DNA from: Flavobacteriaceae bacterium
GTDB lineage: Bacteria; Bacteroidota; Bacteroidia; Flavobacteriales; Flavobacteriaceae
DNA: 64,000 nucleotides
NCBI GenBank assembly: GCA_027082925.1
Contig: JALWTD010000016.1
Span: forward strand, 62,001 to 126,000
Reading direction: 5' to 3'
The position numbers and the translations under genes were made by a program. A model generated the notes under the pieces. That model made no database searches. It was given only the letters and a program-made list of their open reading frames with translations, and had not been told where the DNA came from. Positions 38,978 through 53,009 of the stretch are shown piece after piece (within the stretch, counting starts at the first letter, position 1; each line of letters begins with the position of its first letter).

Positions 38978-41881
38978 TTAATTATCTTTTTTATCTATAT
39001 AATATGTGGAAACATCGGGTTTAAATGCTCGCTTAAACCAAAGAGGTCTTCGCTCTCCGTTTGGCCCCGGAGCAGGGCGAGTCATTGCCAACCATTCTTT
39101 ATAAACTTGATGTGATTTATTTGTATCTACAAAAATATCTCCATACTGTTCTCCTTCAGAAGGTTTCTCAATACGTACTCGTTGATGCCAACAGTGCATT
39201 CCGCTAATTGGATCTGGATGTACTGCATGTGTTATGTTTTGGTGTACTCCTCCATCTTTCCAAAAGATACGTTTTGAATCTTTATCATTCGATTCAAAAG
39301 GTTTAATTCCGGCTATGGTATTCATTTTCCATCCTCCATTACCATCACTTTCTATATTTACCGTATTGGTAGCCCATCTGTTTCCAATTTTATCTTGAGG
39401 TCTTCTCCATCTTCCAATGTGATGAGAACACGCAACAACTCCCGGTTTCATACTTTGGGTAACCCAAACTTTATCTATAAAATAACCTATGTCTGTATTC
39501 ATTTTAACAAGATCTCCTGTTTTAAAGCCCCATTTAGCAGCATCATCAGGGTGCATCCAAATTGGATTTCTATTTGATATTTCAACCAGCCATTTTGCAT
39601 TTCCTGAACGAGAATGTATCAATGTAGGTAATCTAAAGGTAGGTACAAGTACGTATTCTCCTTTTGATTTGTCTAAATTATCGTTGTGAATATGACTTTT
39701 TATATATGCTGGTGTTGCGTATTCAGGCCAGTTCCAATCAACCATAGTTTGCGAATAAAACTCATTTTTTCTAGATGGTGTAGGAAAACCAACAACCGCT
39801 TTTCCATTTACCATAACTCCTATTGCCTTTCCATCTTTTGTAATAACGTCGGTTTTTGGATCTACTTTTGAGCCTTTTAGTTGTTCTTCTGTTAAAGGTG
39901 TTTCATTTTTCTTATATGATTCTCCTTTTTCAATTTCATAAGCACCGTATTTTCTCATATACTCTAGCTCTGCAAACTGCCCTGAGAAACCATCTGCTTT
40001 TGCAGCTTCTGATAACCCTTCAATTCGTTCGAAAATATATTGGTAGTACTCGTCAATGGTAATTTTTTCTCCTTTTCTGTACGGTGATTCAAAATGCTTA
40101 CGAATTCCCATGCTTCCATCCGGATCAATACGCCAACTCAATTCAATCCAAAATTCATCTTCTTCCCAAACTTCACCAGGATTTGCTTCATATGTATATT
40201 TTACTGGGTTTCCATTTCTTCTAGCGGCTTCACGTAATACCGGTTGACGGAAGGCTACCCAAGTTCCTCCATGTGTTGCATACGAGTTTATATCGTGTCT
40301 TTCTGAAGCCAGTCCCATTGGCAATACAAAATCAGCATGGAATGCTGTTTCGTTCCACGTAGGAGTTAGAGCCGAGTGCAATCCAAACTTATCTTCGTTC
40401 ATAAACATTTCCATCCAAGTAAATCCGTCAGGATATGTCCAAACCGGATTAAATACCCGTGAAAAATAAACGTCCATTTTACCTCTTCCTTCTTTTAAAA
40501 AGTGTGGTAATAGTTGGCTCATTTCAAAAAATGCCAATGGATATTCTTTTGGAAAATGAAGTTCGTTCCATTTCTTTTGTGGTTTTGGCGAATTTGGTAA
40601 AGTTGGACTAAACTTATTCCATGAATTTGGAGATGTTCCTCCTTTAGTACCAACAGCTCCTGTTAACACTGTTAAAAAGTGCAAACAACGCGCTACTGCC
40701 CAACCACCAAGGTTTGATGCTCCGGCTGCTCGCCAGTTATGAGAAGCAAACCGTTCTCCTGCTTCTCCAATTTTATGTGCAATTTCTACAATTACATCGG
40801 CTTTTACACCTGATTCTTTTTCAGCATATTCTGGAGTAAAATCTTTATACTCCTCAATCATAGCTTCAATATAATTTTCAAAAGTAACCTCTTTGTCGCT
40901 GTGTTTTGCTAAAAGATATTCTTTCCAGTTTGTCCAATCTTCAAGATAGTTTCTATTGTACAACCCTTCTTTTAAAATAATTAGAGCCATTGCCAACAAT
41001 ACAGCTGCTTCTGTTCCCGGATACGTAGGTAACCAATAATCTGACATACTTGCCGTATTAGACAAACGAGGATCCATTGTTGCTAGTTTAGCTCCTTTCA
41101 TTTTTCCTTCAATAATTCGCTGTGCATGCGGATTAAAATAGTGTCCAGATTCTAAGTGAGCCGAAACCAATAAGATAAATTTAGCCTCTGCATGGTCTGG
41201 AGAAGGTCTGTCGTATCCATACCAAATATTGTATCCAAAACGCGCTCCAGAAGAACATATGTTTGTGTGAGAATTATGACCATCTATTCCCCAGCCTTGT
41301 AAAATCCAGTTCATAAATTTTTCATGGCCCGGACGACCTACGTGATACGCTATCTCATTGTGTCTTCCTTCATTTAAAGCCTTTCTAATTCGGGCTGCGA
41401 TGGTATCTAAAGCTTCGTCCCAAGTAATGCGTTCCCATTCTCCACTTCCTCTTTTCCCTTTACGTTTTAAAGGGTATAAAATTCTATCCGGATCGGTAAT
41501 TTGATTAATTGTAGCTGGTCCTTTTGCACAGTTTCTACCTCTACTTCCCGGATGGTATGGGTTTCCTTCAAATTTTTTAACTTCTTGAGTTTCTTTATCT
41601 ATAAAAGCTGTTAAGCCACAGGCACTTTCACAATTAAAGCACGTTGTTGGTACAATTTGATAGGTTTTTTTATCTTTTTTAGGCCATACTTTAGGGTTGT
41701 ACTCTATCCAGTTATCCCATTTTTCAGGTGGAGGAAAATTCTCATACATTTTAGCAATTTCTTCGTCGCTAAAGTGGCGCATATCGTTGTCAAACTCTTG
41801 ATAGTTTTCTTTGTGCAGATTTGGAATTATTCCTATTTTTTCTGCTATATTTTCTATAAATGATGGTTTTTTATATCCCAT
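38978..41881 (-). CDS. Cytoplasmic molybdopterin oxidoreductase, SoeA-like (probable sulfite dehydrogenase)
   Basis: A 967-residue member of the DMSO reductase family. The N-terminal 4Fe-4S motif is C81-x2-C84-x3-C88-x29-C118. The probable molybdenum ligand is C209 in HTNICSSG. Pterin-binding segments are spread along the chain, ending in the MopB domain near 740-900. There is no twin-arginine or Sec signal, so it is cytoplasmic. That separates it from PsrA, PhsA and TtrA, which are exported, and agrees with SoeA of the SoeABC sulfite dehydrogenase. Its electron-transfer partner is encoded 31 bp upstream in the same operon. Substrate is inferred; other sulfur oxyanions remain possible. Confidence 0.85.
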   Translation of the reverse strand: MGYKKPSFIENIAEKIGIIPNLHKENYQEFDNDMRHFSDEEIAKMYENFPPPEKWDNWIEYNPKVWPKKDKKTYQIVPTTCFNCESACGLTAFIDKETQEVKKFEGNPYHPGSRGRNCAKGPATINQITDPDRILYPLKRKGKRGSGEWERITWDEALDTIAARIRKALNEGRHNEIAYHVGRPGHEKFMNWILQGWGIDGHNSHTNICSSGARFGYNIWYGYDRPSPDHAEAKFILLVSAHLESGHYFNPHAQRIIEGKMKGAKLATMDPRLSNTASMSDYWLPTYPGTEAAVLLAMALIILKEGLYNRNYLEDWTNWKEYLLAKHSDKEVTFENYIEAMIEEYKDFTPEYAEKESGVKADVIVEIAHKIGEAGERFASHNWRAAGASNLGGWAVARCLHFLTVLTGAVGTKGGTSPNSWNKFSPTLPNSPKPQKKWNELHFPKEYPLAFFEMSQLLPHFLKEGRGKMDVYFSRVFNPVWTYPDGFTWMEMFMNEDKFGLHSALTPTWNETAFHADFVLPMGLASERHDINSYATHGGTWVAFRQPVLREAARRNGNPVKYTYEANPGEVWEEDEFWIELSWRIDPDGSMGIRKHFESPYRKGEKITIDEYYQYIFERIEGLSEAAKADGFSGQFAELEYMRKYGAYEIEKGESYKKNETPLTEEQLKGSKVDPKTDVITKDGKAIGVMVNGKAVVGFPTPSRKNEFYSQTMVDWNWPEYATPAYIKSHIHNDNLDKSKGEYVLVPTFRLPTLIHSRSGNAKWLVEISNRNPIWMHPDDAAKWGFKTGDLVKMNTDIGYFIDKVWVTQSMKPGVVACSHHIGRWRRPQDKIGNRWATNTVNIESDGNGGWKMNTIAGIKPFESNDKDSKRIFWKDGGVHQNITHAVHPDPISGMHCWHQRVRIEKPSEGEQYGDIFVDTNKSHQVYKEWLAMTRPAPGPNGERRPLWFKRAFKPDVSTYYIDKKDN

Positions 41882-41912: not shown

Positions 41913-43529
41913 TTATGCTAATGGAATTCTTTGAGGTGCTTCAATCCATATTTTTTCAGTGGCATAAATTCCAACTAGTACAAGTATTGATGAAACTGTT
42001 AACATGGTTGATGTAGGCTCAATTAACAATAATACCAACGGAATCACATTTCCTAAACAAACGACAGCAAACCAAAACAGGTTTTTATAACGCCCTTTTG
42101 TAATCATTTTAACTACTGTATGAGCTGCTGTAGATGGGTGAGTCATTGTCAACTCTGTAATCATTGTAAAAATATTTACAATTAATGCCAATATCATTGT
42201 TGTTTTTAATATTACCATCCAATCTTCAGTTCCTATTATTAGTGATACTAAAGCAAAAATTGCGGTTCCTGCCATAATACTATGAACAAGCATATGAAGT
42301 GCCAATGACGGACTTTGCCAAAAATCTCTTCCTTTTGCTTGTGCAAATAAAAATGCCGTATAAATAGCTAACATTACAGCAAAAAAGGCTGTTACCCATA
42401 ATAAAACTGTTTCTCCAGAAGATATTTCAAAGTAGACTATAGCTCCCCAAACCGTTGCTAGTAATCCAAAAATAGTTATGGTGTATCCTCCTTTTACTAA
42501 CCAAGAGTTCCATTGTGGACGAAGAAGTACGTTTAAAAAACGATCTGGTCTATCTAAATCCATAACTAAAAACAATCCTGTAAGTGCTAAAAAGCCTAAA
42601 GAAATTCCAACCGACCATAGTTTGGTAATACTTGAAATTTCATAATTTAAAAGCATTGCAATAAAAGGAATTAAGAAAGCTCCTGCTGCAATTGCTTTAG
42701 TCATTACATACGCCGATACTTCCCAACCCCAAAGAATTCCTTTATCTGGAGTATCGTAAACTCTTCTCGCTTTTCCGGTTAATACATCTATGTAATTTGG
42801 ATTCTCTGTTTCTTTTTTCTGGTAGGCTGCTTGTAAATCGTTATCTATTACCATTTGTAATAAGTTAACATCGTCATTTGTGTGAACCATTTTTTCAGCA
42901 TACTTTGCATAGTGTCCAACACCTCTGGCTTGTGAGTTCCATAAACTAGGTCCTGATTTATCTGTTGCTTCCGGATTTAAAGAAGCTTCATCTCCATCTA
43001 TGTAAAATAAATTAGGATTTGTACCTTTTTCAGGTTTACGAACTTTTACTTGCTGTCTTGCTAATAATTGTGAAATTTCTGTATTTGGATTCTCCATATC
43101 TCCTGCAATAATTGCATGTTCAGGACAAACCGTTACACAAGCAGGCTCTCTACCAACCTCTATTCTGTGTGCACAGTAATTACATTTTGCAGCTGTATTG
43201 CTATCTGGATCAATATAAAGAGCGTCATACGGGCAAGCCTGCATACAACTTTTACAACCAATACATCTGTTATTATCAAAATCTACAATTCCATCTTCTC
43301 TGGTATACAAAGCTTCTACCGGACAAATCTCCACACAAGGAGCATCTGTACAGTGATTACATCTCATTACCGAAAAAATTCGTCTTGTATTTGGAAATTC
43401 TCCTTTTTCAACTTGCTTAACATATGTTCTGTTAACTCCAACCGGCACATCATGTTCACTCTTACAAGCAGTTGTACAAGCATGACAACCAATACATTTA
43501 CGATTGTCAATTATAAAACCATACTTCAT
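41913..43529 (-). CDS. Fused 4Fe-4S ferredoxin and NrfD/DmsC-type membrane subunit (SoeB-SoeC fusion)
   Basis: A 538-residue fusion. Residues 1-150 are a four-cluster ferredoxin subunit with cysteine sets at 12/15/18/22, 57/60/65/69, 89/92/95/99 and 116/119/131/135. A soluble linker (about 150-265) is followed by eight or so membrane helices of the NrfD/DmsC type (about 270-530), which exchange electrons with quinone. In most relatives (SoeB and SoeC, PsrB and PsrC) these are two proteins. It has no signal peptide, consistent with a cytoplasm-facing ferredoxin domain. It is the first gene of the operon; a Crp/Fnr-type dyad and -7 box lie upstream. Confidence 0.88.
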   Translation of the reverse strand: MKYGFIIDNRKCIGCHACTTACKSEHDVPVGVNRTYVKQVEKGEFPNTRRIFSVMRCNHCTDAPCVEICPVEALYTREDGIVDFDNNRCIGCKSCMQACPYDALYIDPDSNTAAKCNYCAHRIEVGREPACVTVCPEHAIIAGDMENPNTEISQLLARQQVKVRKPEKGTNPNLFYIDGDEASLNPEATDKSGPSLWNSQARGVGHYAKYAEKMVHTNDDVNLLQMVIDNDLQAAYQKKETENPNYIDVLTGKARRVYDTPDKGILWGWEVSAYVMTKAIAAGAFLIPFIAMLLNYEISSITKLWSVGISLGFLALTGLFLVMDLDRPDRFLNVLLRPQWNSWLVKGGYTITIFGLLATVWGAIVYFEISSGETVLLWVTAFFAVMLAIYTAFLFAQAKGRDFWQSPSLALHMLVHSIMAGTAIFALVSLIIGTEDWMVILKTTMILALIVNIFTMITELTMTHPSTAAHTVVKMITKGRYKNLFWFAVVCLGNVIPLVLLLIEPTSTMLTVSSILVLVGIYATEKIWIEAPQRIPLA

Positions 43530-43556
43530 TTTTTGCTAAAATAATTTGAATTTAAA

Positions 43557-43564
43557 CAAAAATA
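43557..43564 (-). promoter_or_regulatory. -7 box (TATTTTTG) of the molybdoenzyme operon
   Basis: TATTTTTG on the minus strand, 28 bp before the start of the ferredoxin-NrfD gene. No TTG occurs 19 nt upstream; instead the dyad at 43586-43599 is centred 32 bp upstream. This is the layout of an activator-dependent promoter. Confidence 0.6.
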
Positions 43565-43585
43565 AGTATTAGAAATACAGGTATT

Positions 43586-43599
43586 GTGATGAATATCAC
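43586..43599 (-). promoter_or_regulatory. Crp/Fnr-type operator GTGAT-GAAT-ATCAC
   Basis: A perfect 5-bp dyad with a 4-nt spacer; with flanking bases it reads TGTGA-N6-TCAC, very close to the Crp consensus. It is centred 32 bp upstream of the centre of the -7 box, that is near -41.5 from the expected start site, the class II activator position. Two Crp/Fnr genes lie in the same island. The divergent moaD promoter is on the other side (68 bp from its -7 box). Confidence 0.72.
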
Positions 43600-43656
43600 T
43601 TATTGTATTGTTTAGAATTATTTTAAATAAGGATTTTTTTTAATCTAAAAATGAGT

Positions 43657-43664
43657 TACTTTTG
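43657..43664 (+). promoter_or_regulatory. -7 box (TACTTTTG) of moaD-moaE
   Basis: TACTTTTG on the plus strand, 24 bp before moaD. No TTG at -33 is present. The Crp/Fnr-type dyad lies further upstream than at the other two promoters. Confidence 0.5.
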
Positions 43665-43688
43665 CAACTGTTACAGCACTAAACACAA

Positions 43689-43931
43689 ATGAAGATTAAG
43701 GTTTTACTTTTTGGAATTGTTACCGATTTAATTGGAGAAAATGAAATTGTTATTTATTTACCTCCTAACTCAACAGTTGAAAATTTAAGGCTTTCTCTAG
43801 CTTTAGAATATGCCAAATTGGAAAACATCCATGAGTTTGCTGTTGCCGTAAATGAAGAGTATGCCGAAAATAATCGGGTTTTAAAAGCAACTGATGTGGT
43901 GGCTATTATTCCTCCTGTTAGCGGCGGTTAA
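43689..43931 (+). CDS. moaD: Molybdopterin synthase small subunit MoaD
   Basis: An 80-residue ubiquitin-fold sulfur carrier that ends in PPVSGG, the C-terminal di-glycine that is adenylated and then thiocarboxylated. It begins MKIKVLLFGIVTDL and has the expected beta-grasp pattern. It is transcribed away from the molybdoenzyme genes and is followed by moaE after 19 bp. Confidence 0.94.
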   Translation: MKIKVLLFGIVTDLIGENEIVIYLPPNSTVENLRLSLALEYAKLENIHEFAVAVNEEYAENNRVLKATDVVAIIPPVSGG

Positions 43932-43950
43932 TTTTATTAAATTTTGTATT

Positions 43951-44373
43951 GTGGAAAACACCTCTATTGTTTTAACTTCAGAAAAACTTGTCATACAAGA
44001 TTGTTTTAATTTTGTACAAGATGCTTCTTGCGGAGGTATTTCAATATTTGTTGGAACTGTTAGAAATTTAACCAAAGGAAAAACAGTAACCTTACTCGAT
44101 TTTAGCTCGTATGAACCTATGGCGGTGAAAGAAATGCAAAAAATAGCAAATGCTGCGCTACAAAAATATCCTATAAAAAAAATAGCCATTCATCACGCAA
44201 TTGGGTCGTTAAAAATAGGCGATATTCCTGTAATTATTGCCGTATCATCGGCACATAGAAAAGCTGCTTTTGAAGCATGTGAATACGCTATTAACACCCT
44301 AAAAGAAACTGTTCCTATTTGGAAAAAAGAATATTTTAAAGATGGAGAAGTTTGGGTAAATGCACATCCGTAA
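43951..44373 (+). CDS. moaE: Molybdopterin synthase large subunit MoaE
   Basis: MoaE inserts the dithiolene sulfurs into cyclic pyranopterin monophosphate. The signature CGGISIFVGTVRN (near residue 30) and SSAHRKAAFEACEYAINTLKETVPIWKKE, with the catalytic lysine and arginine region, are present. I start it at GTG 43951, giving 140 residues, the family length. An upstream ATG at 43894 would add a Leu/Ala stretch that overlaps the moaD end out of frame and resembles nothing in MoaE. It converges on the moeB-like gene with a 1-bp gap. Confidence 0.93.
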   Translation: MENTSIVLTSEKLVIQDCFNFVQDASCGGISIFVGTVRNLTKGKTVTLLDFSSYEPMAVKEMQKIANAALQKYPIKKIAIHHAIGSLKIGDIPVIIAVSSAHRKAAFEACEYAINTLKETVPIWKKEYFKDGEVWVNAHP

Positions 44374-44374
44374 A

Positions 44375-45451
44375 TTATTTAAAATCTTCTATTCCTCCTT
44401 GTAAACTTTGTATTGAAATATGAGGATACTTTTCTACTAATTTTTCGGTGATTGTATAGCTTGTAATTCCTTTATTGCATACTACTACATATTTTTTAGA
44501 AGCGTCTAACTTACAATCTTCTACATTAAAGGTGTTGTAAGAATAATTGTGATGTGCTTTAAAAGGAAGCACTCCTGAAGTATTTATAACATTAATGATA
44601 TGATACTCTGACATGTGTTGTTTTAACTCGTTTGCTGAAATAAGAAGATCTTCACGCTGTACATCACAACTTGAACTATGGTAGTGCTGGCTGTCAAAAA
44701 TTTTTTTGATTTTTTCTAATGTATAAGAAGGTTTCAGTTTTAATTCAAATTTTGAGTTTCGCAAACTGTTATAGATATGAAGCTGATTGATTAAAACAGT
44801 TCCTGTTTTGGTTATTAATTTAACCACTTCATTTACTTGCTTTAAAGCAATCATTCCAACTATGGGATTTAAAGTTCCGGCTTCTTCACAGTTAAGTACA
44901 TTTGTGGCTATTTTAGGAAATGCATCACGCAAATTTGCACTGTATTTTCCGTTAGAAAGCAATACATTAAAGGTTGCTACGTATCCGTCAAATTTATACA
45001 ATGAGCCATACACCAAAGGTTTTCTTTTTAGCACACACGCATCATTAATCAGGTATTTTATAGGTAGGCTATCTGTTCCGTCAACAACAATATCAAAATT
45101 TGAAATTAGACTTAAAATTGTGTTTTTAGAAACAGCTTCTGTAGTACACGTTATAGAGGTAAACGGAGCTCTTTTTTGAATGTACTTTGTCAATACTTCC
45201 GCTTTATACTTGCCAACATCTTCTATCTCATAAAATACCTGACGGTGTAAGTTTGAAACAGAAACTTTATCAAAATCTACTACGTGCAAATGGCCAACAC
45301 CACTAGACGCTAAATACACAGCGACAGGACTTCCTAAACCTCCACAACCAATAACCAACACACGTGCTTTTTGTAAAAGTGCTTGTCCCTTATTACCTAT
45401 TTCTACCAGGGTTGTTTGACGTTTAAAAAATTGTTCTTTTGTTATTTTCAT
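44375..45451 (-). CDS. MoeB/ThiF-type adenylyltransferase with C-terminal rhodanese domain
   Basis: A 358-residue E1-like enzyme that adenylates the C-terminus of MoaD. It has the nucleotide-binding loop VIGCGGLGSPVAVYLASSGV (about 33-52), the VDFDKVSVSNLHRQVFY motif and KRKPLVYGSLYKFDG. The zinc-binding CxxC pairs of E. coli MoeB are not seen. A rhodanese domain follows (about 265-358) with the active-site loop CNKGITSY (C325), which could supply the sulfur. It is the last gene of the long moa operon, 14 bp after the DUF1835 gene. A ThiS-directed role is possible but the neighbours favour MoaD. Confidence 0.9.
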   Translation of the reverse strand: MKITKEQFFKRQTTLVEIGNKGQALLQKARVLVIGCGGLGSPVAVYLASSGVGHLHVVDFDKVSVSNLHRQVFYEIEDVGKYKAEVLTKYIQKRAPFTSITCTTEAVSKNTILSLISNFDIVVDGTDSLPIKYLINDACVLKRKPLVYGSLYKFDGYVATFNVLLSNGKYSANLRDAFPKIATNVLNCEEAGTLNPIVGMIALKQVNEVVKLITKTGTVLINQLHIYNSLRNSKFELKLKPSYTLEKIKKIFDSQHYHSSSCDVQREDLLISANELKQHMSEYHIINVINTSGVLPFKAHHNYSYNTFNVEDCKLDASKKYVVVCNKGITSYTITEKLVEKYPHISIQSLQGGIEDFK

Positions 45452-45465
45452 AAAATAAACACTCT

Positions 45466-46230
45466 TTATTTAAATGCTCCTTTCTGTTCCAACAACATTT
45501 TTATCCTCTTTATGTAACGAGTGTATTGCATGTCTATAAAACCATATATAGTTTCTTGTTGTTGCCAAAGTAAAAGTTCTTTTACCAAGTCTTCTTCTGC
45601 TGAAATATTGTGAGCAGTAAGTGCTACAATTTTGCTTTCTATTTGGTTTAAACCGTTTTTGTTGGTCGTATTTTTTAGGTATTGATTTATTGCTTGTTGT
45701 AAACATTTAAACTTAGCCTTAGCTCCAAAGTCAAATTTACGCATACTTTCCGCTTCTTTTTTTACAAATTCATTCCAACATTGCTGTGCGTACAAAAGGT
45801 CATATCTAGAAAGTTTTACCCGAGTGTTTTCATTTAAAAAATCTCGGGTTTTACCGTTTTTTTCGATAGTAACTATATAGTAGCTTATGTCTTTTCGGTA
45901 CTGTTTTAATAATAATACACATAGTGCCAACATATTTATTTGAGAAAACAAATCGCACTCAAACCACAAAACAATACTCTTGTAATTTTCAACATCTTCT
46001 GTTTTTAAAATTTCTTTTATTGTTTTGTCGTAATATGTTAGCTTATCTATTTGATATTCTTTTTCAAAAAATGCATATCTCTTTTTCCAAAACAAATCGC
46101 TTCCTACATCTTCACACACATCACCTTCACACAATATTTCTCTCCAAACAACAACATCATCATTTGTTTCTAGCCCGTTAATATGTGATAGCGTATTTTT
46201 TTTGTTAAGTATGTGAAGTGTTTTTTTCAT
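45466..46230 (-). CDS. DUF1835-type protein in the molybdenum cofactor operon
   Basis: A 254-residue soluble protein with a DUF1835-like N-terminus (LHILNKKNTLSHIN, then VVVWREILCEGDVC) and a mainly helical C-terminal half ending in EQKGAFK. The family has no known function. It overlaps the mobA-like gene by 26 bp and is 14 bp from moeB, so it is translated with the cofactor genes. No catalytic motif is apparent. A role in the cofactor pathway or in assembly of the molybdoenzyme is inferred only from this tight placement. Confidence 0.78.
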   Translation of the reverse strand: MKKTLHILNKKNTLSHINGLETNDDVVVWREILCEGDVCEDVGSDLFWKKRYAFFEKEYQIDKLTYYDKTIKEILKTEDVENYKSIVLWFECDLFSQINMLALCVLLLKQYRKDISYYIVTIEKNGKTRDFLNENTRVKLSRYDLLYAQQCWNEFVKKEAESMRKFDFGAKAKFKCLQQAINQYLKNTTNKNGLNQIESKIVALTAHNISAEEDLVKELLLWQQQETIYGFIDMQYTRYIKRIKMLLEQKGAFK

Positions 46231-47335
46231 TAATTTCTTTATAGGCGTTTTTAAAATCTTCAGGCGTATTTACATTTCTAATAAACTGGTCATCTACCTC
46301 TACCATTTCAACATCAGAATTAATAAGTACTTTTCTAGGACATGAATATCCTTGAGCTAAATAATTTAATAATATAGAATAACTTTTTGGTTCCCAAATA
46401 GTAATTAAAGGTTCTGGAAATTTCTTTCCTTTTCCTTTTATAGTTGTGGCTATTTTTGAAGGATTTCTTTGCTGAAGAAGTTGTTCAATAATTTTACTGT
46501 TTACAAAAGGCAAATCGGTGGCTAAAACCAACCAAGCAACATTTGGATTTTTTTGAAATGCCGAACATATTGCCCCAAACGGGCCTAGTTCTAAAAAGGT
46601 GTCATCAATTTTATTTTTATAATTAATTTCTTGATTTTTTCGAACCGACAAAAATGTTTCTAATTGGTGTTGCTCTAGCAATTCTACTGCTACATCTCGT
46701 TGATTTTTACCGTAAAAATTCAACATTCCTTTATCTGTTCCCATTCGTGTACTTTTCCCTCCGGCAAGTACCAATCCTTTTATGCTAGGTATTTTTTCTG
46801 AAATTAATGTATTTATATGAGCTGCAATTTGCTCAACATCACTAATATGATATTTTTTTAGATTTTTTAATTGCGGATATTCTTCTGTCAAAAAGTTGAA
46901 AAGAGGTGTGTCTTTAGTTACCTCTACAATAAACTTCACATTGGTTAGCTGTGAAATGCGTTTTAAAACAGAAGCCTCTTTTTCTTTGTCTAAAATTAAA
47001 ATTTGATTGTCTCCTTTGTAGTGATTCCCATTTATAAAAACACAATCGTACTGAGAAAATAAAATACGTTGGTTAAATTTATTTAATTCAATATTTGTAG
47101 TTATCGCAACTGACCCCTGATGGTGAAAGGTGTAATTTTCTAACTTAGAAATGTGTACATCTTTACTATGAGAAGCATCAAAATATGCCATTTTATATGT
47201 TGGCAATAGTGTGGTAATTTGCTGTATTAGATTTGAAATAACACTGCATTTAGTACCTAAAATCGTTATCTCGTTAGGTGCAAAATTGTGATTTTCTCTT
47301 AAGGTTAGTTTTGCGTGTTTTTGGTGCTTAGTCAT
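46205..47335 (-). CDS. MobA-type guanylyltransferase with degenerate MobB-like N-terminal domain
   Basis: A 376-residue two-domain protein. The C-terminal part (about 185-376) is a MobA nucleotidyltransferase with GLVLAGGKSTRMGTDKG, the KxxLELGPFGAI-like segment and WLVLATDLPFV, which attaches GMP to molybdopterin. The N-terminal ~160 residues have the layout of MobB (ITILGTKCSVISNLI in place of a P-loop), but the Gly-Lys-Thr/Ser nucleotide-binding residues are lost. The ATG at 47335 overlaps the moaC stop (ATGACTAA), which supports this start over one 33 nt upstream. Its 3' end overlaps the DUF1835 gene by 26 bp. Confidence 0.86.
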   Translation of the reverse strand: MTKHQKHAKLTLRENHNFAPNEITILGTKCSVISNLIQQITTLLPTYKMAYFDASHSKDVHISKLENYTFHHQGSVAITTNIELNKFNQRILFSQYDCVFINGNHYKGDNQILILDKEKEASVLKRISQLTNVKFIVEVTKDTPLFNFLTEEYPQLKNLKKYHISDVEQIAAHINTLISEKIPSIKGLVLAGGKSTRMGTDKGMLNFYGKNQRDVAVELLEQHQLETFLSVRKNQEINYKNKIDDTFLELGPFGAICSAFQKNPNVAWLVLATDLPFVNSKIIEQLLQQRNPSKIATTIKGKGKKFPEPLITIWEPKSYSILLNYLAQGYSCPRKVLINSDVEMVEVDDQFIRNVNTPEDFKNAYKEINEKNTSHT

Positions 47336-47804
47336 TTTTAATATCGCTTTTACCGCCAAATTTTTCAATTAATTTAACTTCTTTTATAATCATTTTTTGC
47401 GATATAGCTTTACACATATCGTATACCGTAAGTGCTGCAATATTAACACCTGTAAGTGCTTCCATTTCTACACCTGTTTTTCCTTCAATAGCAACAGTAC
47501 AACTAATTTCAATATGATCGCTATCTACAATATCAATATCAATATCGATACCGTCAATTAATAAAGGGTGACACATAGGTATAAGTTCTGCTGTTTTTTT
47601 TACAGCCTGAATACCTGCTATTATTGCTGTTTGAAATACCGGGCCTTTTTTGGTTACCCGTTCGTTGTTACGGAAATGAGCTATTATTTGATTTCCTAAA
47701 AACATGTGTGCTTTGGCAGTAGCACTCCGTTTTGTAATTTTTTTTTCGCCCACATTTACCATTTTAGGCTGATTTTTATCGTTAATATGTGAGAATTCGG
47801 TCAT
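47328..47804 (-). CDS. moaC: Cyclic pyranopterin monophosphate synthase MoaC
   Basis: MoaC completes the conversion of the MoaA product into cyclic pyranopterin monophosphate. Its 158 residues carry the family motifs KTAELIPMCHPLLID and GVEMEALTGVNIAALTVYDMCKA, and the ending KFGGKS. It overlaps the mobA-like gene by 8 bp and follows moeA after 22 bp. Confidence 0.96.
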   Translation of the reverse strand: MTEFSHINDKNQPKMVNVGEKKITKRSATAKAHMFLGNQIIAHFRNNERVTKKGPVFQTAIIAGIQAVKKTAELIPMCHPLLIDGIDIDIDIVDSDHIEISCTVAIEGKTGVEMEALTGVNIAALTVYDMCKAISQKMIIKEVKLIEKFGGKSDIKND

Positions 47805-47826
47805 AATTTTGTTTATTCAACAGGGT

Positions 47827-49023
47827 TTATCTGTAATTAATTAACGGAAATACTTCTCCTTTTGTAAAGTTAGTTCTATCTGCCGGCAATTCCAAAAAGG
47901 CATCAGCATCAATTAAATTTGCTAAATCTCCAGAACCTCTTCCCGATATTGGAGTAGCCATTAGTGTACCTTCTTTTTGAGTCAATTTTACCTGAAGGAA
48001 ATATGTTAGTTGTGGTTTAAAATAGAAATCGTCTGACAAAACAGCTTGTTCCTTATTTATAAAGCTAATACCTACTGATTTTTGAAACCACGGATAGAAA
48101 TATTTTAGGCAACCTACAAATGTAGAAACCGGATTTCCGGGGAAAGCAAAAATAGTTGTCGTATTTTTTTTACCAAACCAAAAAGGTTTTCCCGGACGTT
48201 GTTGTACTCGATGAAAAAGTTTATTTACACCTAAATTATCTAAAACTTCAGGAATAAAATCGTATTTCCCTTTAGATACCGCTCCACTAAATAACAGTAC
48301 ATCATAATCATCTAAAAATGATTTGATGCGTTGTTCTAACAGCTCCTTATCGTCTAAAATATGTGCTGTTTCTGCCTTAATATTTAATCTTTCCAATAAT
48401 GAGACCAATGTATACACATTACTACGTCTAATTTGGTGTTCTTTTGGTGTTTCAGAAACCTCAACAAGCTCATTCCCTGTAGAAACAATTATTACTTTAG
48501 GCTGTTTTGCTACTTTTATTGTTGATTTTCCTACGGTCGCCAGCACACCTATTTCTGCAGAAGAAATTACCGTGTCTTTGTGTATTAAAAGAGTTCCTTG
48601 CTTTCTGTCGAGACCTTTTTTATGAATGTTTTGAAATTTTTTAATGCTCTCCACGCCAACTGTTACTGTACCGTTATTAATTTCTACTTGTTCGTAAGGA
48701 ATAACGGCATCTGTATTTTTTGGTAACACAGCTCCGGTCATCGCTTCTAAGCAATTATGGTTGCTTTGCAGTTGTAATTGTGGATTTCCTGCTGCCTGAA
48801 TGCCTTCTATATCAAATGTTCGCACTCCTTTAAAAAAAGCTTCGGACTGAATGGCTATTCCATCCATACTCACTCTGTTAAATGGAGGAAAGTCTCGGTC
48901 AGCAACAATATCTTCCTTTAAAACACGACCTCTAGAGTTTAAAAAACTAACTTCTTCTATTCCAAAATTTTCAGAATTACTTAGTATTATATCTAGCGCT
49001 TTTTCAACTGTTGTTAGATTCAT
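47827..49023 (-). CDS. moeA: Molybdopterin molybdenumtransferase MoeA
   Basis: MoeA inserts molybdate into adenylylated molybdopterin. It is 398 residues, with the N-terminal FNRVSMDGIA motif, the GAVLPKNTDAVIPYE stretch, the MoCF-biosynthesis domain (VIIVSTGNELVEVSETPKEHQI; LLFSGAVSKGKYD; RPGKPFWFG; FAFPGNPVSTFV) and a C-terminal beta domain. A separate MogA/MoaB, which makes the adenylylated intermediate, is not found in the window. It follows the TrpF-like gene by 12 bp. Confidence 0.95.
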   Translation of the reverse strand: MNLTTVEKALDIILSNSENFGIEEVSFLNSRGRVLKEDIVADRDFPPFNRVSMDGIAIQSEAFFKGVRTFDIEGIQAAGNPQLQLQSNHNCLEAMTGAVLPKNTDAVIPYEQVEINNGTVTVGVESIKKFQNIHKKGLDRKQGTLLIHKDTVISSAEIGVLATVGKSTIKVAKQPKVIIVSTGNELVEVSETPKEHQIRRSNVYTLVSLLERLNIKAETAHILDDKELLEQRIKSFLDDYDVLLFSGAVSKGKYDFIPEVLDNLGVNKLFHRVQQRPGKPFWFGKKNTTTIFAFPGNPVSTFVGCLKYFYPWFQKSVGISFINKEQAVLSDDFYFKPQLTYFLQVKLTQKEGTLMATPISGRGSGDLANLIDADAFLELPADRTNFTKGEVFPLINYR

Positions 49024-49035
49024 TATTATTCATTT

Positions 49036-49683
49036 TTATAGTGCTTCAAAAAACGATTTAAGTTTGTGTTTATCTAACTCATTATTTGTTCTAACTCCAC
49101 TACACACATCTACACCATAAGGAGCCACTTTTTTTATCGCTTTTCTAATATTTTTTGAGTTTAAACCTCCTGCCAAAAATACGGGAATATTTACTTTTTC
49201 TACGATTGATTTGCTAATTTCCCAATTGTGTATATTTCCTGTACCTCCCAGTGTTTTAATTTTTTGATTTGGGTTTCCGCTATCTAATAAAAGCATATCT
49301 ACTTCTTTCGAAATTTGAATAGCAGCAGTTATAGATTCTTTGTTTAACACATGAATTACTTGAATTATTTTTACTTGAGGTAATTTTTGTTTTAGCTGTT
49401 TGTGCGAGCCTTCTGTTAAAGCATCAACTATTTGAATGGCCGATGTGTTTACTCTAGAGTGGTGTGAAAGAATGTTTTTTACGGTGGTTTCACTTGTTAA
49501 TAAAACCGTTTCGATATGACTTGGTGCAAATGCGGCTATTTCTGAAATTAGTTCATCGCTAATTATCCCGGGGCCACTAGGCATATTGCCAACCAAACCT
49601 AAAAATGAAGCTCCCGAAGCTATTGCTATTTGAGCTTCTTTTATACTACTTATACAGCATATTTTAACTTTTAGGTTTCTCAT
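49036..49683 (-). CDS. TrpF-family (phosphoribosylanthranilate isomerase) paralogue in the moa operon
   Basis: A 215-residue (beta/alpha)8-barrel protein of the TrpF family. The residues that act in TrpF are kept: a cysteine at position 9 (KICCISS, where the usual motif is KICG) and an aspartate at about D134 (LLLDSG). The phosphate-binding elements GGTGNIHNW, FLAGGLNSKNIRKAI and GVDVCSGVR are also kept. It may therefore be active, yet it lies between moaA and moeA with no trp gene nearby. It begins directly after the moaA stop. Possible explanations are a misplaced isomerase or a related reaction on a pterin or nucleotide intermediate; the function is not known. Confidence 0.85.
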   Translation of the reverse strand: MRNLKVKICCISSIKEAQIAIASGASFLGLVGNMPSGPGIISDELISEIAAFAPSHIETVLLTSETTVKNILSHHSRVNTSAIQIVDALTEGSHKQLKQKLPQVKIIQVIHVLNKESITAAIQISKEVDMLLLDSGNPNQKIKTLGGTGNIHNWEISKSIVEKVNIPVFLAGGLNSKNIRKAIKKVAPYGVDVCSGVRTNNELDKHKLKSFFEAL

Positions 49684-50673
49684 TTACCCTCCTATTGTAG
49701 ACATGCTTTCTGAAACCTTACTTGTTCTATTTAACTCAGCAATAAAACCATTTTTGGGTTTTCCTTGAACTGTTTCAATAAAAAGATTTTTTAAATCGTT
49801 ATCGCTAGCTCCGTTTCTAATAAAATCTCTAACATTAAATACACCACCGTCAAACAAACAGTTTTTAAACATTCCGGTAGCGGTAATACGAATTCTATTA
49901 CAATCGTTACAAATGGTTCTTGTAAATGCCGGGATTATGCCAAAAGTTCCCTTATAGTCCGGTATTTTGTACATATGCGAAGTAGATGTTTTTTCGGTTT
50001 TTACCGAAACTACTTTCGGGTAATAATTTTGAATATGATGAAGTATTTTATTGTAATTCCATACTTCTTTAATGTGTCTTTGACCTTTTCCGTTAAATGG
50101 CATTTCTTCAATAAACCTAACCGCTATATTTTTTGTTTTTGAAAGCTCTATAAAGTCAGTTATTTCATTGGTATTAACTCCTGACTGTACCACCATATTA
50201 ACCTTAACGGTTAAATTGCTATTTTCTAATGCTATTAATGTTTTATAAACCTCCTCAAAAACATCGCGTCTTGTTATTTCTGCAAATTTATTTTTTTGTA
50301 AACTATCTAAACTTAAATTAATCGTATTAATATTTAAGCTTTCCAGTTTAGAGATATAGTTTGTTATTAAAGCGCCGTTTGTTGTAATATTGATTTGATC
50401 TAGTTTGTTATTGAACGACAACGATTCTAGTAGATGAATAAAATTTTTTCGCACAAACGGTTCGCCTCCGGTTAAACGAACTTTATTTACACCTAGCTCT
50501 GACAGCACCCGAACAATTCGGTACATTTCTTTGTAGGTGAGTAGTTCTTTTCTAGGAACAATAGCTATTCCCTGAGCAGGCATACAGTACTTACATCTTA
50601 AATTGCATCGATCTGTAACTGCTAGCCTTAAATAACTTATTTTTCTACCAAATTTATCTTTCAACTCCATCAA
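49684..50673 (-). CDS. moaA: GTP 3',8-cyclase MoaA
   Basis: The radical SAM enzyme of the first step of molybdenum cofactor synthesis. The N-terminal cluster motif is C23-x3-C27-x2-C30 in DRCNLRCKYCM. The C-terminal cluster motif is CNDCNRIRITATGMFKNCLF, and the protein ends in the required Gly-Gly. The ATG at 50673 overlaps the stop of the Crp/Fnr gene as ATGA; a second ATG at 50670 is almost equally likely. It is 329 residues, the normal length. Confidence 0.96.
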   Translation of the reverse strand: MMELKDKFGRKISYLRLAVTDRCNLRCKYCMPAQGIAIVPRKELLTYKEMYRIVRVLSELGVNKVRLTGGEPFVRKNFIHLLESLSFNNKLDQINITTNGALITNYISKLESLNINTINLSLDSLQKNKFAEITRRDVFEEVYKTLIALENSNLTVKVNMVVQSGVNTNEITDFIELSKTKNIAVRFIEEMPFNGKGQRHIKEVWNYNKILHHIQNYYPKVVSVKTEKTSTSHMYKIPDYKGTFGIIPAFTRTICNDCNRIRITATGMFKNCLFDGGVFNVRDFIRNGASDNDLKNLFIETVQGKPKNGFIAELNRTSKVSESMSTIGG

Positions 50674-51302
50674 TTGAGTGTTATTTTATTTCTTCCTAAT
50701 GTTACAATTTCTTCTTGCTCCATTTTTTTTAAAATTCTTGAAACTGCTTCTCGAGACACTCTTAAATCTCGAGCAATATCAAAATGTTTTTTATGTATTG
50801 TACTGCTTTTTGTAATAAAACTTGTGTGCTCTAAATATTTTAACAACCTAAATTCTAAATTTGTAAAGGCAACATCATTAATAGTTTCTATTAAAAATGA
50901 TATTTGTTGTTGATTTAATTTAAAATAGAATTGTCTCCAAGATTCATATTTTAAAAACCATTCATTTATTAATTTTGCGGGAATCGAAATGTAGGTAACT
51001 ACACTTTCTGCTTGAAGCCTTATCTCACTTTTTTTATTTTCTTGTGCATATGAAATAGCTATTGCACTTGTTTGCTTTTCAGATAAATAGTGTAGCAACA
51101 TCCCATTTCCTTTACCATCGCGACGCATTACTTTAACAACTCCAAAAACAATAAGCGGAATAAATTTTATTTCTCTTCTAATTTCCAGTATTATTTTTTC
51201 AGGCTCTGCGTATTTTAAAATTCCATTGTTACATATTTCTTGTAATAAATTTTCTCCAAAAACATTAAAAAAATTATTTGTAACAATTTCATTTATTTTC
51301 AT
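50670..51302 (-). CDS. Crp/Fnr family regulator 1
   Basis: A 210-residue Crp/Fnr protein: N-terminal cyclic-nucleotide-binding-type beta roll, a long dimer helix, and a C-terminal helix-turn-helix (DLRVSREAVSRILKKME). The recognition helix has the E-x2-S-R pattern of Fnr. The N-terminus has no cysteine cluster like that of Fnr, so it does not sense oxygen in the same way. It is the third gene of the yeeE-yedE-crp-moaA operon, 22 bp after the transporter gene, so it may autoregulate the operon. Confidence 0.92.
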   Translation of the reverse strand: MKINEIVTNNFFNVFGENLLQEICNNGILKYAEPEKIILEIRREIKFIPLIVFGVVKVMRRDGKGNGMLLHYLSEKQTSAIAISYAQENKKSEIRLQAESVVTYISIPAKLINEWFLKYESWRQFYFKLNQQQISFLIETINDVAFTNLEFRLLKYLEHTSFITKSSTIHKKHFDIARDLRVSREAVSRILKKMEQEEIVTLGRNKITLN

Positions 51303-51324
51303 TTTATGTAAAATTTACGTTGCG

Positions 51325-51738
51325 TTAGTGTGGTAATCTATTTTTAAGTAAACCGTATAAAAACGCACCAAAAATAGATCCAAATATAACCACAAAAATA
51401 GATACTACACCTTTACCTACAAGCACAAACATGGGTCCTGGACAAGCTCCTGCTAGTGCCCATCCTAAACCAAATAATATGCCTCCCAATAAATTACGGT
51501 ACATTCCTTTTTTCTTAGGGGCAACATATACTTCTTTTCCTTCAAATGTTTTTACCATTTTTTTTCTGAAGAAATACATATTTGCCATTCCTATTACAAC
51601 TGCCGATCCAATAATTCCGTACATATGAAATGACTGAAATTTAAACATTTCGTATATTCTATACCACGAAATAATTTCTGCTTTACTCATTACTATTCCG
51701 AAGAGTATGCCTACTAAAAAAAACTTTATATATTTCAT
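51325..51738 (-). CDS. YeeE/YedE-type transporter, small subunit
   Basis: A 137-residue membrane protein with four helices. The conserved ACPGP motif (C99) lies in the segment LFGLGWALAGACPGPMFVLVGKGV. Proteins of this family carry sulfur compounds such as thiosulfate across the membrane. The family often occurs as two half-size genes in tandem, as here. It is 4 bp after the larger half and is co-transcribed with the cofactor genes, which ties sulfur uptake to the molybdoenzyme. Confidence 0.88.
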   Translation of the reverse strand: MKYIKFFLVGILFGIVMSKAEIISWYRIYEMFKFQSFHMYGIIGSAVVIGMANMYFFRKKMVKTFEGKEVYVAPKKKGMYRNLLGGILFGLGWALAGACPGPMFVLVGKGVVSIFVVIFGSIFGAFLYGLLKNRLPH

Positions 51739-51742
51739 ACTC

Positions 51743-52300
51743 TTATAATATTAAAGGTAAAATTAACCATGTCATTGTTAAACCTCCTATAAAAAATCCG
51801 ATAACCGAAATTAAAGAAGGTAATTCTAAATTGCTCAGTCCTACAATGGCGTGTCCTGAAGTACATCCTCCTGCCCATCTAGACCCAAATCCTACAAGTA
51901 TTCCGGCAGTTAATAGCACTAGAAATCCTTTTACCGAAAGCATGGTTTCTACACTAAAAATTTCATCTGGTAAATAAGAGGCTCCTGCATTTGCAATGCC
52001 AATATCTGCTAAATCTTGAACCGTTTGAGGATTTAAGTTTACCACATCGGTAGGCGATAGCCAATTTGCAGCAATAAAACCTCCGGTAATAGCTCCTGCT
52101 ATAAATATTAAATTCCAAGCATTTTGTTTCCAGTCAATTTTAAAATAATCAACAAATTTACCTGCTCCACCTATAGAGCATAGTGTTTCTAAGTTTGAAG
52201 AAACACCAAATCGCTCGCCAAAGTAAAAAAGTAGAAACATAACCAAAGCAATAATGGGTCCTGCAACATACCAGGCCCATGGTTGTGTAATAAATTCCAT
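51743..52300 (-). CDS. YeeE/YedE-type transporter, large subunit
   Basis: A 185-residue membrane protein with five or so helices and the family's second cysteine motif GGCTSGHAIVGLS (C146), preceded by RWA. A further cysteine (C41) lies in the first loop. It is the first gene of the long operon and has a dyad plus -7 box upstream. Together with the small subunit it forms the inverted two-part transporter typical of the family. Substrate is inferred as a sulfur species such as thiosulfate or sulfide-derived sulfur. Confidence 0.88.
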   Translation of the reverse strand: MEFITQPWAWYVAGPIIALVMFLLFYFGERFGVSSNLETLCSIGGAGKFVDYFKIDWKQNAWNLIFIAGAITGGFIAANWLSPTDVVNLNPQTVQDLADIGIANAGASYLPDEIFSVETMLSVKGFLVLLTAGILVGFGSRWAGGCTSGHAIVGLSNLELPSLISVIGFFIGGLTMTWLILPLIL

Positions 52301-52328
52301 AATTTAATTAGTTAGTAGTTAGTACTTT

Positions 52329-52336
52329 CAAATGTA
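52329..52336 (-). promoter_or_regulatory. -7 box (TACATTTG) of the yeeE-moa operon
   Basis: TACATTTG on the minus strand, 29 bp before the start of the YeeE gene. No TTG at -33; the dyad at 52358-52371 is centred 32 bp upstream, the same spacing as at the molybdoenzyme promoter. Confidence 0.6.
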
Positions 52337-52357
52337 TCGTTTAAAATATTCTGTTTG

Positions 52358-52371
52358 GTAACATTTGTTAC
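52358..52371 (-). promoter_or_regulatory. Crp/Fnr-type operator GTAAC-ATTT-GTTAC
   Basis: A perfect 5-bp dyad with a 4-nt spacer, also readable as GTA-N8-TAC, the NtcA form of the Crp-family site. It lies between the stop of Crp/Fnr gene 2 and the yeeE start. Arm length, spacer and distance to the -7 box equal those of the site at 43586-43599. Confidence 0.72.
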
Positions 52372-52376
52372 ACAGT

Positions 52377-53009
52377 TTAGAATTCTAAAATTTCGATTTT
52401 ATTTCTATACAATTTGATTTTTCCTTCATTTTCAAGTTGTTTCAGAAGTCTTGAAACAACTACACGAGAAGTGTGTAAATCGTAAGCGATGTCTTGATGC
52501 GTTGTGTTTAAAGAAGTCTCTCTCATAATTTGAGCCTTATCTGTAAGGTATTTGTACAATCGCTCATCCATCTTCATAAAAGCAAGAGTATCTACAGTTT
52601 CCATCATTTCGTTTAGCCTTACATTATAGCTGTCTATCACAAAGTTTCTCCACGATTTATATTTAACCAGCCATTCGTCTAGTTTTTCTACCGGAAGAAA
52701 AATAACTTCCGATTCTTTTTCAGCAATAGCTCTAATCCCACATTTTCCACTAGATAAAGCACTGGCAAAAGAACTCGCACAAGTATCTCCTCGTTCTAAA
52801 AAGTACAATAGCATTTCTTCTCCCTTTTTATCTTCTCTAACAATTTTAATTGCTCCATTGAGAAGTAAAGGGACTCCTTTTATTTGATCTCCTAAATCTA
52901 CCAATAATTCATTCTCACGAAGTTTTTTATAGGTTCCTACCTGAACAATTTCGTCTAGTAGTTCATCTTCAAAAACATATGAAAAATAGCTATTTAACTT
53001 TTCTCTCAT
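52377..53009 (-). CDS. Crp/Fnr family regulator 2
   Basis: A 210-residue Crp/Fnr protein, paralogous to regulator 1 throughout. The helix-turn-helix contains DLHTSRVVVSRLLKQLE: the recognition helix has V in place of the Fnr-type glutamate, which recalls RVTVTR of NtcA. Cysteines are present in the sensor domain (DTCASSFASALSSGKCGI), but not as an Fnr-type cluster. Its ATG overlaps the end of waaA, so it is probably transcribed from that gene and not from the island's own promoters. It is the best candidate for the activator of the two dyads. Confidence 0.92.
   Translation of the reverse strand: MREKLNSYFSYVFEDELLDEIVQVGTYKKLRENELLVDLGDQIKGVPLLLNGAIKIVREDKKGEEMLLYFLERGDTCASSFASALSSGKCGIRAIAEKESEVIFLPVEKLDEWLVKYKSWRNFVIDSYNVRLNEMMETVDTLAFMKMDERLYKYLTDKAQIMRETSLNTTHQDIAYDLHTSRVVVSRLLKQLENEGKIKLYRNKIEILEF

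Follow-up and report, generated by a model that had tools for sequence, protein, structure and literature searches.

Analysis of a 64,000-bp stretch of a marine Flavobacteriaceae genome of 2.47 Mb (hereafter the window, part of contig 16; assembly GCA_027082925.1, positions 62,001 to 126,000 of JALWTD010000016.1) revealed two promoters of a predicted sulfur-metabolism gene cluster in which a perfect 5+4+5 dyad (two 5-bp arms around an N4 centre) is placed 32 bp, centre to centre, from a -7 box of the Bacteroidota type, TAnnTTTG. One promoter precedes the genes of a predicted molybdoenzyme, PsrBC and PsrA, while the other precedes YeeE1, which heads a series of transport, regulatory and molybdopterin genes. 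The evidence presented here indicates that two paralogous Crp/Fnr proteins probably read the two dyads, an Arg-Val protein that at YeeE1 and the Arg-Glu protein CrpB that at PsrBC-PsrA; binding, transcription starts, direction of control and inducer are what we infer from the sequence. The elements of the two promoters are the following.

43586..43599, minus strand: operator 1, GTGAT-GAAT-ATCAC (plus-strand letters), predicted CrpB site of the PsrBC-PsrA promoter, at about -40.5
43557..43564, minus strand: -7 box of the PsrBC promoter, TATTTTTG, with a predicted start near 43552 by arithmetic from the box position
52358..52371, minus strand: operator 2, GTAAC-ATTT-GTTAC (plus-strand letters), predicted Arg-Val Crp/Fnr (CrpA or CrpC) site of the YeeE1 promoter, at about -40.5
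52329..52336, minus strand: -7 box of the YeeE1 promoter, TACATTTG, with a predicted start near 52324 by the same arithmetic

A letter-by-letter check of both dyads agreed with the original prediction in letters, coordinates and spacing, and TAnnTTTG occurs only once on the coding strand of each promoter gap. Operator 2 is placed just past the stop codon of CrpA. In Flavobacterium psychrophilum the sigma-A box spans positions -12 to -5, according to the available text of PMC9723704, and with this box position the dyad centre falls at -40.5 when it lies 32 bp from the box centre (d32) and at -41.5 when it lies 33 bp from it (d33). The class II Crp/Fnr layout near -41.5 that had been proposed would on this basis be centred at -40.5, and the spacing of dyad and box is kept at all 30 PsrBC promoters of a genus set described below. 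Good support for reading both dyads as predicted class II sites of Crp/Fnr activators comes from the published box position, the conserved d32 layout in the genus and its recurrence at a peroxidase and a cytochrome gene. Alternatively, a Crp/Fnr protein bound at -40 could block RNA polymerase, a repressor arrangement that the sequence permits, the sites overlapping the -33 region; however, the constant distance of 32 bp to the -7 box (33 in some relatives, once 31) is what activation by contact would require, and canonical NtcA-activated promoters carry their site at about -41.5 (PMC3898017, in its available part), so that repression is considered highly improbable.

The missing -33 TTG, presented originally as a contrast to housekeeping promoters, proved less informative: neither box is preceded by a TTG beginning 10-39 bp before it, but among 169 candidate promoters, selected crudely, just 12% have TTG at any of the three offsets where it is most frequent, and its absence says little because it is rare among them anyway. 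The gap that holds operator 1 also contains a divergent box, TACTTTTG, at 43657 on the plus strand. Control of the divergent MoaD gene by the dyad centred at 43592.5 was considered and rejected, since dyad centre and MoaD box are 68 bp apart, which does not correspond to class II placement.

The spacing was compared with chance in the window plus 32 further stretches, amounting to 704 kb or 28% of the genome. Perfect GTxAx dyads by themselves are unremarkable (three in the window versus about 1.8 in mononucleotide shuffles), but their spacing is not. The 704 kb hold 154 GTxAx-N4-xTxAC dyads, that is, 308 oriented dyads, and at offsets from -400 to +400 the exact TAnnTTTG was paired with them 0.285 times per offset on average, as compared to four times at +32, the sole offset among 801 with four exact pairs (Poisson probability 2e-4, or 0.03 when counting just the two pairs beyond PsrBC and YeeE1). 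Of these two further pairs, one stands before the gene for a di-haem cytochrome c peroxidase and the other before a cytochrome c gene; in both cases 25 bp separate the box from the ATG. At a looser threshold, at least 5/6 key dyad bases and at least 5/6 box bases, a dyad at d32 or d33 was found in 12 of 13 peroxidase promoters of the genus (one without) and in 21 of 30 cytochrome c promoters (nine without; 34 matches, four of which yielded no locus). In a relaxed genome scan with up to two mismatches, the counts for most motifs were not clearly higher than those at other distances or with control dyads, and the evidence is limited to exact or one-mismatch genome hits for this reason. Two of the two-mismatch hits are an ATGAC-N4-GTCAT dyad at d32 (L061:10413), before a metal-ATPase gene divergent from the gene of a Thr-Glu Crp/Fnr protein, and a single dyad at both d32 and d33 (L077:18987) between divergent genes, read by eye as ferredoxin and oxidoreductase; these dyads possibly represent a third regulator code with identical geometry.

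The layout is strongly conserved at PsrBC promoters of the genus. In the genus set of 38 genomes, with one PsrBC promoter taken from each of the 30 genomes with a match, the dyad lies at exactly d32 from an exact TAnnTTTG, with the ATG 24-28 bp further on, in 30/30. The original prediction proposed looking for the dyad 32 bp upstream of the box in this and related genomes; the +32 offset is unique in the 704 kb, and its retention upstream of PsrBC orthologues is the deciding evidence that the layout is more than chance. Conservation is highest in the dyad arms and the box and lowest in the dyad centre, although the invariant positions are partly built in, the blocks having been picked by pattern. 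Other Flavobacteriaceae with a PsrBC site showed distances of 32 or 33 bp, and once 31. Among 39 more distant PsrBC homologues (L123-L161, 60-68% identity) no full dyad was found with a box of at least 5/6 bases; a perfect GTGAC-N4-GTCAC occurs in L138 and L158, where the box at 33 bp is poor.

The letters of the two dyads separate them. The original prediction took them for the same dyad, yet the arms differ at two of five positions, and they are probably the sites of two proteins. Four proteins of the genome exceed the HTH_Crp_2 cut-off (PF13545, 27 bits): CrpA (40 bits) and CrpC, both Arg-Val, CrpB (30.2 bits), Arg-Glu, and one read as Thr-Glu, whose gene is near cytochrome cbb3 genes. At the recognition helix, SREAVSR of CrpB aligns to SRETVGR of E. 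coli CRP, with Arg180, Glu181 and Arg185 all present, while SRVVVSR of CrpA aligns to STRVTVTR of NtcA. The position equivalent to 181 is Val in all six aligned CrpA sequences, not Pro as in HcpR2. According to the accessible part of PMC1274295, the half-site tracks CRP positions 180/181 and loss of Glu181 goes with GTAACnnnnGTTAC. CrpB would be expected at GTGA because it is the lone Arg-Glu protein among the four. The evidence thus favours two operators rather than one, GTAAC-N4-GTTAC fitting the Arg-Val proteins and GTGAT-N4-ATCAC fitting CrpB; the proposed regulon signal GTxAx-N4-xTxAC is supported as such, but not as one common signal.

The CrpC gene is near an operon of pyridine nucleotide-disulphide oxidoreductase, DsrC and DsrE genes (L062:8004-12939, C17 of the same genome). 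Upstream of this operon stands a perfect GTAAC-TTGT-GTTAC, with a weak box, TATATCTA, at a distance of 32 bp. A cysteine in the effector-domain region (GDTC) is present in all six aligned CrpA sequences and lacking in CrpB. It was discarded as a candidate sensor: a crude count found it in 14 of 21 Arg-Val hits (four had no motif match and three differ) and in three of the eight Arg-Glu proteins hit by the CrpA query, and it is neither universal nor specific, since it is missing in some Arg-Val hits and present in some Arg-Glu ones.

In accordance with two operators, the type of site at PsrBC followed the presence of CrpB. Of 42 Flavobacteriaceae rows, 30 were scored on both traits; recognition helices were read for 30 loci. 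A GTGA half-site was present in 17/17 scored rows with CrpB or Arg-Glu kin (13 full proteins, two fragments and two relatives) and GTAAC in 13/13 with no CrpB found, with no discordant scored row. Twelve rows were dropped, ten of them without a dyad and box upstream of PsrBC and two, L115 and L162, being GTTAC-TCTT variants. In nine of the ten, PsrBC lies 32-83 bp past YeeE2, and these nine probably share the YeeE1 promoter, judging from the spacing; in L089 the distance is 201 bp. Outside the tree before counting were L121 (start missing), genomes already seen as L043, L047 and L048, and L044 and L049, which both have GTAAC at PsrBC (no CrpB was found in the L049 genome, and the L044 genome was not searched); the second PsrBC copy of the L213 genome was outside the count. 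In relatives with no CrpB found, the promoter of the enzyme, or of an operon seemingly containing it, is mostly of the GTAAC form. Within the genus set, at the thresholds used, PsrBC was found in 30 genomes and CrpB in 31, with both in 28 of the 30; the two with PsrBC and no CrpB match, G261 and G263, have sites identical to those of L105 and L102, respectively, where CrpB fragments sit at contig edges. Each PsrBC site of the genus contains at least one GTGA half (30/30), and 19 contain two.

The association could instead reflect shared ancestry in one genus, with GTGAT read by a different Arg-Glu protein. Most CrpB genomes do belong to one genus, and after correction on the PsrBC tree, where each of the two traits changes four times and all four independent pairs are concordant, p is 0.125. 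The tree nevertheless groups the window PsrBC with lineages whose searches gave no CrpB, even though the window combines GTGAT, CrpB and the short leader typical of the genus (43529-43599). L099 shows the opposite: it branches within the CrpB clade but carries GTAAC, and a CrpB was not found in it. As CrpB is also the sole Arg-Glu protein of four above the cut-off in this genome, shared ancestry alone is distinctly unlikely. The coding sequence of PsrBC and its promoter and leader type appear to have had separate histories in the window and in L099, which suggests, from one gene tree, that promoters follow the resident regulator and not the coding sequence.

In 16 Flavobacteriaceae genomes with a negative CrpB search and a readable YeeE1 promoter, a GTAAC upstream half was found in 15, 13 of them with GTTAC opposite; in L112 the opposite half is one base off, and L089 showed no site at this promoter. 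In the Chitinophagales locus L146, GTAAC-N4-GTTAC at YeeE1 adjoins an Arg-Val Crp gene. The 31 YeeE1 loci of the genus comprised 15 of the GTAAC type, six of the GTGAT type, six without a full dyad and four not assessable; a full GTGAT-N4-ATCAC was present in 6 of 27 assessable CrpB-bearing genomes of the genus versus 0 of the 16 without CrpB found. In one subgroup of the genus, the operon that encodes CrpB may thus have come under the control of CrpB itself. Two GTAAC-N4-GTTAC dyads 17 bp apart were observed at the YeeE1 promoter of L083, L085 and L086, where YeeE1, YeeE2 and PsrBC are contiguous.

Several observations weigh against a strict pairing of two regulators with two operators. Four independent pairs are too few for significance, and one of the four changes is lost if the two weaker CrpB relatives are removed. 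The CrpB label is less secure in four of the 17 rows, L102 and L105 being contig-edge fragments and L117 and L120 having 40-44% identity and the helix SRETISR. Absence of CrpB in metagenome-assembled genomes may reflect incompleteness; no Crp match whatever was found in the L119 genome. The unscored L162 (GTTAC-TCTT-ATCAC, no CrpB found) is discordant by the plain half-site rule. Of the 30 PsrBC promoters of the genus, 11 have hybrid sites that pair one GTGA with one GTAA half, and GTGA-N5-GTTAC accounts for seven of these. At YeeE1, 6 of the 27 assessable genus promoters are without a full dyad, L104 has a GTGA half (GTAAC-AATG-GTCAC) though no CrpB was found, and the Saprospiraceae locus L127 has GTGAT-GAAC-ATCAC by a poor box in a genome not searched for CrpB. 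Outside the family, where the test of the residue rule is weak, 29 YeeE1 loci were covered out of 151 genomes with a match, and six of the 29 loci have a nearby Crp gene: Arg-Glu L334 has GTGAT-CTAC-ATCAC, as expected, but Arg-Glu L325 is discordant (GTAAC-CAAA-GTTAC), Arg-Val L319 is mixed (GTAAC-TTTT-GTCAC), and no site was found at the three other Arg-Val loci.

The hybrid sites, together with L104, the same geometry at both promoters and the mixed type of the cytochrome c sites, would suit one regulator of relaxed GTxAx specificity reading both promoters, with GTGAT and GTAAC interchangeable. This is possible but doubtful, as the site variant follows CrpB in the scored rows (17/17 versus 0/13) and CrpA and CrpB differ at a known specificity residue. 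The hybrid sites might also be bound by a CrpA-CrpB heterodimer, making the PsrBC promoter an AND gate whose operator moves in evolution between CrpA-CrpA, hybrid and CrpB-CrpB forms with the 32-bp geometry kept, which we regard as very unlikely. Two paralogues with separate operators is retained as the probable reading, and it is set out below together with the genes of the island.

52377..53009, minus strand: CrpA, Crp/Fnr regulator, SRVVVSR (Arg-Val, NtcA-like), by profile match and alignment
51743..52300, minus strand: YeeE1, Sulf_transp half-transporter, first gene of the operon (Pfam PF04143)
51325..51738, minus strand: YeeE2, DUF6691/Sulf_transp half-transporter, by profile match
50670..51302, minus strand: CrpB, Crp/Fnr regulator, SREAVSR (Arg-Glu, CRP-like), by profile match and alignment
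44375..50673, minus strand: MoaA, phosphoribosylanthranilate-isomerase-like, MoeA, MoaC, MobA-like, unknown and MoeB-like genes, co-directional with CrpB, by profile matches
43692..44373, plus strand: MoaD (ThiS family, from 43692) and MoaE (43894-44373 as listed), divergent
41913..43529, minus strand: PsrBC, 4Fe-4S subunit fused to NrfD membrane subunit, 538 aa (Pfam, NCBIfam)
38978..41881, minus strand: PsrA, predicted molybdopterin oxidoreductase catalytic subunit, 967 aa (Pfam, NCBIfam)

Leftward from the operator 2 promoter the order is YeeE1, YeeE2, CrpB and the molybdopterin genes to 44375, and leftward from the operator 1 promoter it is PsrBC and PsrA; from strand and spacing we infer that each series is one operon. 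The CrpA gene is directly upstream of YeeE1. PsrA was under the cut-off for every one of the 23 NCBIfam models listed. The phosphoribosylanthranilate-isomerase-like gene (49036-49683) stands amid the molybdopterin genes and has the same place in L045, and a 2351-aa open reading frame occupies 27959-35014 on the minus strand.

In the circuit proposed for the two paralogues, a dimer bound at each dyad would contact RNA polymerase beside the TAnnTTTG box. YeeE1, YeeE2, CrpB and the molybdopterin genes would be activated by an Arg-Val protein acting at GTAAC-N4-GTTAC. The most likely one is CrpA, whose gene adjoins the operon upstream; CrpC, encoded at another place in the genome, shares the Arg-Val pair. 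CrpB would next activate PsrBC-PsrA through GTGAT-N4-ATCAC. In this order, with CrpB itself encoded in the YeeE1 operon, the transport and cofactor genes would be expressed before the enzyme.

To our knowledge, the anaerobic regulons of Flavobacteriaceae and Bacteroidota are little mapped, and no paper on such a two-paralogue arrangement was found in the literature searched, most subscription papers being out of reach. Promoter position, box and targets stay constant here while the operator letters switch between two forms, and each form fits the recognition residues of a different one of the two regulators that the cluster encodes; the hybrid intermediates would offer a natural series for how activators hand over a promoter without breaking its function. 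The signature GTxAx-N4-xTxAC, 32-33 bp from TAnnTTTG, is searchable as a class II signal in Flavobacteriaceae and perhaps in Bacteroidota more widely.

Among known systems, the class II promoters of cyanobacterial NtcA (GTAN8TAC near -41.5; position from the available part of PMC3898017) resemble the CrpA case in the Arg-Val helix, the GTA/TAC half-sites and the predicted position, but differ in that CrpA, a distant homologue, would act beside a Bacteroidota -7 box on sulfur and molybdopterin targets. The HcpR2 regulon, predicted in Bacteroides among others according to the accessible part of PMC1274295, shares with CrpA GTAACnnnnGTTAC and a Crp/Fnr protein without Glu at 181; HcpR2 has Pro at this position and a predicted control of hcp, whereas CrpA has Val and is encoded beside sulfur transport genes. 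CrpB resembles E. coli CRP in Arg180-Glu181-Arg185, the GTGA half-sites and the predicted class II position, a likeness by sequence, although it scores 26.1 bits against the CRP equivalog, whose cut-off is 266 bits.

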